DNA of 64,000 nt from Sandaracinaceae bacterium (GTDB taxonomy: Bacteria > Myxococcota_A > Polyangia > Polyangiales > JAFGIB01): NCBI GenBank assembly GCA_017881055.1, contig JADGRF010000117.1:1-64000 (forward strand). The letters are read 5' to 3'. Below the pieces are notes generated by a model. That model worked only from the letters and a program-made list of their open reading frames with translations, searched no databases and had not been told where the DNA came from. Made by a program: the position numbers and the translations under genes. Of the stretch, positions 21,296 through 60,519 are shown piece after piece (the stretch's first letter is position 1; each line of letters begins with the position of its first letter).

Positions 21296-21324
21296 TTGAC
21301 AGACCGCGCCACTATGCCTAAACC
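21296..21324 (+). promoter_or_regulatory. Possible promoter of etfBA
   Basis: A perfect -35 TTGACA at 21296-21301 is followed after 17 bases by TAAACC, a weak -10. Its first bases (TTGACAGACCG) are identical to those of the tRNA-tuf promoter at 959-949. The 143-base leader that follows contains the dispersed hairpin repeat. The -35 is clear; the -10 is poor. Confidence 0.35.
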
Positions 21325-21366
21325 CCCGGGCACCTAGGTAGACAACGCTGTATCACTGCGCGCTGT

Positions 21367-21422
21367 CGACATACCCGCCGAGCAGCGGGTCACATACCCA
21401 CCGAGCAGCCTTCGGCTCTCGG
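21367..21422 (+). repeat. Dispersed hairpin repeat, copy upstream of etfB
   Basis: Two imperfect direct units (21367-21386 and 21390-21409, sharing ACATACCC-R-CCGAGCAGC) are followed by a hairpin CCGAGCAGCC-TTC-GGCTCTCGG (21401-21422). Bases 21389-21422 match the reverse complement of 60480-60513 at 33 of 34 positions. Both copies have a second partial unit immediately before the hairpin unit. A short GGGT...ACCC stem around the CACAT core can also form. It lies in the etfB 5' leader. Confidence 0.75.
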
Positions 21423-21467
21423 CGGCGACTCTCAAAGCATCGGCATCAGGCTCTAGTTGGAGGTCCC

Positions 21468-22301
21468 GTGAAGATCCTCGTTCCCGTCAAGCGCGTCTGC
21501 GACCCGGACCATGCAAACAAGGTGAAGCTCTCGGCTGACGGCAGCGCCGTCACCTCCGACGGGCTCGAGTGGAAGCCGAACCCGTTCGACGAGTATGCGG
21601 TCGAAGCAGCCCTGCGGCTGAACGAGAACGCGCCGAAGAACGAGAAGCTCGGTGAGACCATCGTCGTGTCGCTCGGCTCGGCCGACGTGGCGCAGACGCT
21701 GCGTCAGGCGCTCGCGATGGGTGCCGACCGCGGCATCCTCGTCGAAGCCAACGACGCTCAGCTCGACTCCTCGGTCGTGGCGCGCGCGCTCAAGGCCATC
21801 GTCGACAAGGAAAAGCCCGACCTCGTGCTCATGGGCAAGCAGACCGTCGACGGCGACAGCAACGCGGTGGGCCAGATGCTCGCCGAGCAGCTCGGCTGGC
21901 CGATGGCCACGTTCGCGATGACGATCAGCACGACGGACGGCGGCAAGACGCTGACCGTTGGCCGCGAGGTCGACACGGGCGTGCTCACGCTCAAGCTCAC
22001 GCTGCCCGCAGTGGTCACGGTCGATCTGCGCATCGTGGCGCCGACCGCGATCAAGAACGGCGCGACTCCGGCCGATCACAAGTACAACGAAGGCGCGCGC
22101 TACGCTTCGCTCAAGGGCATCATGCAGGCGAAGAAGAAGCCGATCGACCAGTCGAAGCTGGCGGATCTCGGCATCGACACCGCGACCACCGCGAGCTACG
22201 CGAAGTTCGAGCTGCCGGCGGCCCGCTCGGGCAGCACCGTGTTCGTCGAGACCGTCGACGACTTGCTCGCCAAGCTTCGCAACGACGCGAAAGCCATTTG
22301 A
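21468..22301 (+). CDS. etfB: Electron transfer flavoprotein, beta subunit
   Basis: EtfB with EtfA takes electrons from acyl-CoA and other dehydrogenases and passes them to ETF-quinone oxidoreductase. The 277-residue protein begins MKILVPVKRVCDPDHANKVK. It has LAMGADRGILVEA, MGKQTVDGDSNAVGQMLAEQ (AMP-binding region) and the ETF-beta recognition helix region near residues 185-205. The start is GTG 21468 with GGAGG at 21459-21463. It is separated from etfA by 30 bases. Confidence 0.95.
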   Translation: MKILVPVKRVCDPDHANKVKLSADGSAVTSDGLEWKPNPFDEYAVEAALRLNENAPKNEKLGETIVVSLGSADVAQTLRQALAMGADRGILVEANDAQLDSSVVARALKAIVDKEKPDLVLMGKQTVDGDSNAVGQMLAEQLGWPMATFAMTISTTDGGKTLTVGREVDTGVLTLKLTLPAVVTVDLRIVAPTAIKNGATPADHKYNEGARYASLKGIMQAKKKPIDQSKLADLGIDTATTASYAKFELPAARSGSTVFVETVDDLLAKLRNDAKAI

Positions 22302-30952: not shown

Positions 30953-31075
30953 GAGAACCGCGGATCCGCTTGCAGGCGCGGCTTACGTCCTCGCTTGGCT
31001 CGGTCACGTACGGGAAGTACGCTCCCTCGCCGCGCTGCGGGCGCGCTCGCGCCTGCAAGCGGCTTCGCGGTTCTC
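30953..31075. repeat. 123-bp inverted repeat between comEA and hisG
   Basis: Left arm 30953-30980 (GAGAACCGCGGATCCGCTTG then CAGGCGCG) pairs with right arm 31048-31075 with 26 of 28 matches. Inside, CGTAC (31007-31011) pairs with GTACG (31017-31021), giving a nested hairpin around GGGAA. The element fills almost the whole space between two convergent genes and could act as a bidirectional transcription block. It could also be a non-autonomous palindromic element. No flanking target duplication was identified. Confidence 0.75.
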
Positions 31076-60407: not shown

Positions 60408-60457
60408 GTCGAAAAACCTGGATGGCCAGGATACCGCGGCCTAGCAGCCGCCAACAA

Positions 60458-60519
60458 GCTCGGCGGGTATGTGACTACCCCGAGAGCCGAAGGCTGCTCG
60501 GCGGGTATGTGACTACCCC
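60458..60519. repeat. Dispersed hairpin repeat, copy at the rsmE 3' end
   Basis: Two identical 24-bp direct units lie at 60458-60481 and 60496-60519, each starting GCTCGGCGGGTATGTGAC and ending TACCCC. They are separated by GAGAGCCGAAGGCT. In reverse complement, 60480-60513 matches the repeat in the etfB leader at 33 of 34 positions, including the hairpin CCGAG-A-GCC-GAA-GGC-TG-CTCGG. The second unit contains the rsmE stop codon, so the element reaches into that gene. Confidence 0.85.

Follow-up and report, generated by a model that had tools for sequence, protein, structure and literature searches.

A genus-specific family of REP-like hairpin elements in Sandaracinaceae, found predominantly in sense orientation downstream of genes

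The 64,000-nt stretch of Sandaracinaceae bacterium DNA analyzed here (the window) carries two closely similar hairpin-forming sequences, one in the 5' leader of etfB and the other at the 3' end of rsmE (Table 1). Both had been singled out in an initial annotation made from the sequence, and comparison of 21389-21422 (+) with 60480-60513 (-) bears out the match, with 33 of 34 bases identical; the pair also yields the only 22-base exact inverted match between distinct places in the window. Searched with an 18-base core at up to three mismatches, the window returns five matches against a shuffle mean of 0.10, among which the one at 21874-21891, inside etfB itself, is probably due to chance. A partial unit does stand beside each copy, as had been reported, with a 5' half unit in the etfB leader and a truncated unit beyond rsmE. 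Of the two hairpins previously described, CCGAG...CTCGG is real and proves to be the hairpin of the whole family, whereas GGGT...ACCC folds at both window copies but is incidental and not a family feature, with GGTA or GGGT found within 12 nt upstream in only 14 of 157 units examined. The placements stand as well: the downstream copy lies at the rsmE stop codon, its unit beginning 2 nt past the TAG, and the leader copy, spanning 21369-21425 with its half unit, lies 42 nt ahead of etfB (a gene named from the initial annotation and its sequence, with no family scan). Both are ordinary members of the family described below, rsmE providing the typical 3' position and etfB a minority 5'-leader one; the leader structure suggested earlier would apply to this minority, most clusters examined lying 3' of a same-strand gene.

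In the etfB leader the element is placed between a conserved promoter/operator-like region and the gene, 3' of a near-palindrome (GTAGACAACGCTGTATC) that is probably an operator. The upstream stretch 21296-21354, comprising TTGACA and this near-palindrome, is kept in related genomes and may perhaps constitute a repressor site for the etf operon; a consensus promoter scan reported no promoter at the TTGACA box. The half-unit arrangement of the leader recurs at rpsK and rpoA. At gathering score an Rfam scan of the window returned only four tRNAs, and at the etfB copy a search relaxed up to E 1 gave only sR-tMet, at 20.1 bits, below the gathering score of 50. The terminator role once offered for these copies finds no support, as the scan detected no U-tract terminator at either window element and no T-run follows the stem in 70 first copies of the family; an intrinsic-terminator-like hairpin does lie separately, downstream of the two rsmE units.

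Table 1. Features of the window at and around the two hairpin elements. G000 is the window's own genome and G001-G003 are related genomes.
Feature	Position	Strand	Basis
TTGACA box upstream of the palindrome	21296..21301	+	present in several orthologous leaders
Near-palindrome GTAGACAACGCTGTATC upstream of etfB, candidate operator	21338..21354	+	similar in etfB leaders of G000-G003
5' half unit up to the hairpin apex (ACATACCCGCCGAGCAGC), immediately 5' of the full unit	21369..21386	+	exact core match
Full hairpin unit, etfB 5' leader	21392..21425	+	covariance model 56.8 bits, E 4e-10; fold
etfB	21468..22301	+	ORF; matches in 7/7 family genomes
Intrinsic-terminator-like hairpin with T-run, distinct from the two rsmE units and downstream of them	60417..60430	-	scan
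Truncated second unit, ACATACCCGCCGAGC then host sequence, head-to-tail	60455..60472	-	pattern match, 3 mismatches
Full hairpin unit directly 3' of rsmE, on the rsmE strand	60477..60510	-	covariance model 56.8 bits, E 4.1e-10
TAG stop of rsmE, followed after 2 nt by the unit core	60513..60515	-	ORF end

The element extends far beyond the two copies first seen, so the refuting condition named in the initial annotation, a genome with these two copies alone, does not hold. In the window's own genome (G000; 5.88 Mb in 341 contigs, 94% complete) the 18-base core, again at up to three mismatches, occurs 91 times on the forward and 95 times on the reverse strand, that is at 186 places against 10 (8 and 2) for the reversed-pattern control, and a 34-nt covariance model built from 35 distinct units (2 of the 37 distinct units were omitted from the alignment) finds 146 units at E<=0.001. 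Overall the element stands at about 100 places in G000; the sister genomes G001 and G002 have tens of sites each. Identical units are found at unrelated loci. An order-wide search, run with stricter filters that lose weak matches and with 38 candidates scored per genome, gave matches in 3 of 183 genomes, namely G000, G001, and G002, which form one Sandaracinaceae genus. A 27-base pattern run over GTDB contigs, a set from which the window's own genome may be absent, hit 33 stretches, all in assemblies JADGRG (Sandaracinaceae bacterium Chersky_785) and JADGRE (Proteobacteria bacterium Chersky.17_24). Viral contigs returned 0 matches when scanned, which does not support viral carriage. Together with the pairing and compensatory changes detailed below, the pattern counts, covariance-model matches, and order-wide search support the earlier description of a REP-like dispersed hairpin, and the family is one of genus-specific, REP-like short palindromic repeats. 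A second dispersed element, of about 120-150 bp with long complementary arms, also lies in the window (30953-31075), with its core GGCTTACGTCCTCG at 30980-30993 within a conserved frame GGCTTACGTCCTCG ... GGGCGCGCTCGC; its exact core is present in 18 of 303 loci examined (some of them overlapping) from G000, G001, G002, and G006, the last of which makes it wider than the genus, and Rfam gives no match at gathering score for the copy in the window.

The counts that follow rest on gene models from a codon-usage gene finder and on units drawn from the stretches around matches, which are not a random genome sample; one cluster, C336, was left out. Pairing, upstream-hairpin, orientation, and array counts use only units with the exact core ACATACC[CT][GA]C (157 units in 100 clusters), the 5' edge was read from units with at most one mismatch in ACATACC (115 units, 70 first copies), and 69 of 107 clusters offered a usable first copy for position counts. 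The names rpsK, rpsD, rpsE, rpoA, rpmE, nuoH, nuoI, and PBP2-like were given from protein sequence, with no family scan.

Each unit consists of an unpaired tail, TN-ACATACC, followed by CGCxxAG-C-AGCC-TNC-GGCT-CTxxGCG, which folds into a stem of 11 bp, interrupted by one bulged C and capped by a loop of 3 nt. Its length is about 34-45 bp, the sister species being too diverged to fix the 3' boundary or any target duplication. The tag ACATACC is kept at 93-100% per base, with T at position -2 in 93% of first copies; a UNCG tetraloop at the apex was considered and dropped, the third loop base being C in 87%, G in 9%, and T in 4%. The 157 units, selected on the first 10 bases, have 89.5% of cells paired, and sliding the partner by 1-3 bases lowers this to 38-46%. 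Among 91 distinct units the stem pairs exchange in concert: pair 11-30 is GC in 47 and CG in 26, and pair 12-29 is GC in 48, AT in 21, and CG in 4. In a smaller alignment the covariation score was reached in 0 of 500 shuffles, with two of the five measures unremarkable (reached in 48 and 184 of 500). The hairpin is thus maintained through compensatory changes. It folds on both strands, and the structure alone is therefore indifferent to orientation.

Adjacent units are arranged head-to-tail: none of 108 clusters mixes strands, no opposite-strand neighbor lies within 300 nt of any of the 100 exact-core clusters, and 42 of these 100 contain more than one unit. Among the 14 arrays of at least three units, 11 keep a single period; linkers are identical in 8 arrays and vary by one base in another 3. 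At etfB, rpsK, and rpoA the full unit is preceded by a half unit that breaks off at the apex of the hairpin (GAGCAGC), and we infer that polymerase slippage at the hairpin gives rise to both the half units and the tandem arrays. Duplication of the left flank was rejected as the source of every tandem linker: the linkers at L047 and L070 copy the flank and those at L044, L045, and L049 do not. The ends of contigs C12 (L109) and C110 (L134) share the same flank and carry at least three and two tandem units, respectively; they may represent one locus with variable copy number, and tandem arrays are perhaps the reason that the assemblies break there.

Orthologous sites were compared between the sister species. 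At rsmE the unit is present in G000 and absent from G001 and G002, and the G000 protein is one residue shorter than its orthologs; at nuoH, where G000 alone carries the unit, the C-terminus is about three residues shorter and TAG replaces TGA, while at nuoI, again filled in G000 only, the TGA is unchanged. The PBP2-like gene has a unit in G000 (stop TAA), a degenerate one in G001 (TGA), and none in G002 (TGA). The rpsK site is filled in G000 and empty in G002 and G004, and the rpsD site is filled in G000 and G002 and empty in G003 and G004. Following rpoA, G000 and G002 have the unit and G001 a degenerate version of it, the last residues of the protein being the same, and the etfB leader is filled in G000 and G001 and empty in G002-G006. 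Sites filled and empty among sisters mean that the element was gained or lost within the genus, mostly with few C-terminal residues altered.

Copies within proteins provide a further line of evidence. Thirteen clusters in the three genomes overlap predicted ORFs, 12 of them in sense, and 9 of these 12 are read in one frame, approximately as H-IPAEQPSALG; several of the 12 are close to gene ends, where the gene models may be wrong. In G002 the in-frame unit of an ABC-F ATPase corresponds to a 12-residue gap in the alignment to YheS, and that of MutM falls within a gapped alignment stretch (contigs C72, L276, and C36, L268, carry the ABC-F and MutM copies, respectively). In G000 one unit lies within a DUF2126 match and another between two dehydratase-like domain matches. 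Absence from the same sites in sisters, combined with in-frame copies inside proteins, indicates that the element has moved, and the comparison points to a real genus-specific palindromic element that has moved within the genus. A static functional element would likewise be compatible with the copies common to more than one species, namely those after rpoA and the PBP2-like gene and, for G000 and G001, the one in the etfB leader.

In G000, 57 of 69 clusters lie outside predicted ORFs, and where the upstream gene is known (53 clusters), 49 share its strand. Since convergent gaps are uninformative for orientation, the strand test was made on co-directional gaps, where the three genomes together give 58 sense and 2 antisense clusters (p 3e-15), or 31 and 2 once exact-stop units are removed (p 1.3e-7); divergent gaps hold 5 clusters. 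Inside predicted ORFs the ratio is 12 sense to 1 antisense (p 0.003). The 5' edge of first copies reads T T R(A>G) R(G>A) T N, and motifs resembling this edge are themselves sense-biased inside genes (122:68), which makes the ORF bias alone weaker evidence; in 140 element-free gaps their sense excess is just 44:22 and 72:45, and the sense bias of the units is greater than that of the edge-like motif.

This edge often coincides with the stop codon of the upstream gene. Among same-strand first units, a stop that finishes 2 nt short of the core, or shares the core's first base, is seen in 22 of 50 in G000, in 5 of 8 in G002, and in 1 of 16 in G001, so that docking is strong in the first two genomes and weak in the third; units starting at most 8 nt past the stop number 30 of 50, 6 of 8, and 5 of 16 in the same order. 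Stops at distance 2 comprise 8 TAA, 6 TAG, and 2 TGA, versus 16 TAA, 51 TAG, and 154 TGA in other genes (p 8e-6), and in the commonest class the hairpin base lies about 6-9 nt past the stop codon. TTAAT occurs twice in the 64-kb window yet precedes 13 of 70 first copies, some of them 10-81 nt from the stop of the upstream gene; being rare in the window and present far from stops, the motif is a feature of the target or of the element and not merely of stop codons.

The sense placement in 58 of 60 co-directional-gap clusters and 12 of 13 ORF clusters, and in 31 against 2 away from exact stops, is what one would expect if the element spread into the sense strand at the RNA level or coupled to transcription, via an RNA intermediate or the displaced non-template strand. 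Selection on orientation could yield the same pattern, and we consider such a route improbable; equally slim, in our estimate, is the chance that the family is a mobile 3'-UTR module, nearly always in sense, that would spread in this way without a dedicated DNA transposase. Were that so, an RNA-level module would dock on stop codons, supplying or reusing TAA or TAG, or cross ORFs in frame, and would rewire translation termination and mRNA ends genome-wide. A DNA-level route would make the element an ordinary REP/RAYT element or a non-autonomous derivative of IS200/IS605. A Y1 transposase of the HUH class would then recognize its bulged single-stranded hairpin and insert it 3' of a TTRRT-type target, and the sense bias would result from the target sequence and purifying selection. 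The single-bulge hairpin, the T-rich 5' flank, the tandem arrays, and the REP-like 3'-UTR preference are consistent with this, as are the share of the sense bias found in the edge-like motif and the RAYT-like Y1 proteins of G001. The sense bias nonetheless exceeds that of the motif, only 4 of 70 first copies carry GTAG at their 5' edge, and opposite-strand dimers are absent. The initial annotation's proposal of an unlinked RAYT-like enzyme has so far found no support either: at E<=0.001 the PF01797 (RAYT, Y1) profile matches nothing in G000 or G002 (both about 94% complete), and its two weak matches in G001 (28.3 and 24.5 bits) lie on contigs C376 (L239) and C54 (L238), of only 4.1 and 4.6 kb, neither of which carries a unit. 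In the four genomes G003-G006, which belong to the family but carry no copy of the element, Y1 matches are present, so the distribution of Y1 genes does not follow that of the element, and the TnpB zinc-ribbon profile PF07282 has no match in any of the three genus genomes; RAYT and TnpB were accordingly set aside as candidate mobilizers, with nothing for either in G000. We regard a REP/RAYT or IS200/IS605 origin as unlikely, if deserving of serious attention.

A static regulatory 3'-UTR element, be it an attenuator, an exonuclease block, or a protein-binding hairpin, that is under selection and spread by ordinary duplication would account for the sense-biased, near-stop positions and for retention after rpoA (G000 and G002, degenerate in G001) and in the etfB leader (G000 and G001). 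It sits poorly with the lack of matches in the other 180 genomes of the order under the stricter filters, with sites that differ between sisters, with in-frame copies in proteins, and with identical units at unrelated loci, and we hold it to be very unlikely. That the family is an artefact of assembly or binning is scarcely credible: the assemblies are fragmented, two are named as MAGs, and arrays reach several contig ends, but three different assemblies carry the family at differing insertion sites and many copies lie mid-contig within conserved operons. On balance we favor, with somewhat better than even confidence, a mobile hairpin with both REP-like and RPE-like features that would form a new subtype and probably acts as RNA in 3' UTRs; its most likely role is that of a transcribed 3'-UTR hairpin beside the stop codon.

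For this mobile 3'-UTR hairpin, we propose that some enzyme inserts the unit strand-specifically just 3' of TTRRTN or together with it, and that in a GC-rich genome motifs of this type would favor stop codons as sites. After placement, polymerase slippage at the hairpin would make the half units and tandem arrays, and sense-strand copies would be tolerated or kept since the transcribed hairpin acts on the mRNA, through 3'-end protection or through slowed termination like that reported for E. coli REPs near stop codons. REPs are widespread, yet their movement and their post-stop placement are not settled. The present family is unusually clean, having one orientation, one edge motif that often lies at stops, two of three genomes without a Y1 transposase match, and three sister species with differing sites. 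It thereby lends itself as a natural test case for asking whether REP placement is shaped by RNA-level function or by transcription-coupled insertion, while extending REP-type repeats to Myxococcota. A full-text literature search combining Myxococcota with 'repetitive extragenic palindromic' returned no paper, and the family is not described in the titles or abstract starts among the matches listed for Sandaracinaceae repeats and myxobacterial palindromes.

Rickettsia palindromic elements have in-frame copies inside protein-coding genes, and in this respect the present family behaves alike, with in-frame copies in conserved proteins and a preferred frame in 9 of 12 sense ORF clusters. The likeness noted here is one of behavior, and most units of the present family are extragenic and near stops. 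IS200/IS605 elements insert strand-specifically 3' of a short T-rich motif; their ends share the bulged hairpin, and insertion of that kind could explain the TTRRTN edge, which is compatible with it, although neither Y1 nor TnpB has a match in G000.

The closest comparison is with REPs, which, as described in PMC3733652 and PMC8266576, are likewise palindromes of 20-40 bp with an unpaired conserved tag at one end and a high copy number, the stem irregularity being common to the group 2 REPs described there. REPs of both the GTAG and CGTC types lie mostly 3' of ORFs, and GTAG termini often provide a stop codon, as set out in PMC3733652, which also describes intragenic REPs and RPEs; the present units are similarly found mostly close 3' of ORFs with some copies inside them. 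For TnpA-REP, PMC8266576 reports that the GTAG tag is important and that in E. coli the bulge in the stem is as well. The tag here, TN-ACATACC, is neither GTAG nor CGTC, with GTAG found 3' of some units, and the opposite-orientation dimers of REP BIMEs are absent, none of 108 clusters being mixed-strand. No RAYT gene was seen beside a unit, a trait shared with CGTC REPs, which have no dedicated transposase in the account of PMC3733652. REPs at most 15 nt from a stop codon can stall ribosomes and lower translation (Liang et al. 2015, as cited in PMC12306157), and the hairpin base here, some 6-9 nt past the stop in the commonest class, falls within that distance. The family thus shares size, copy number, and place with REPs, fails to share their tag, inverted dimers, and RAYT, and adds a nearly uniform transcript-sense orientation, which makes it REP-like without belonging to the known REP super-families.
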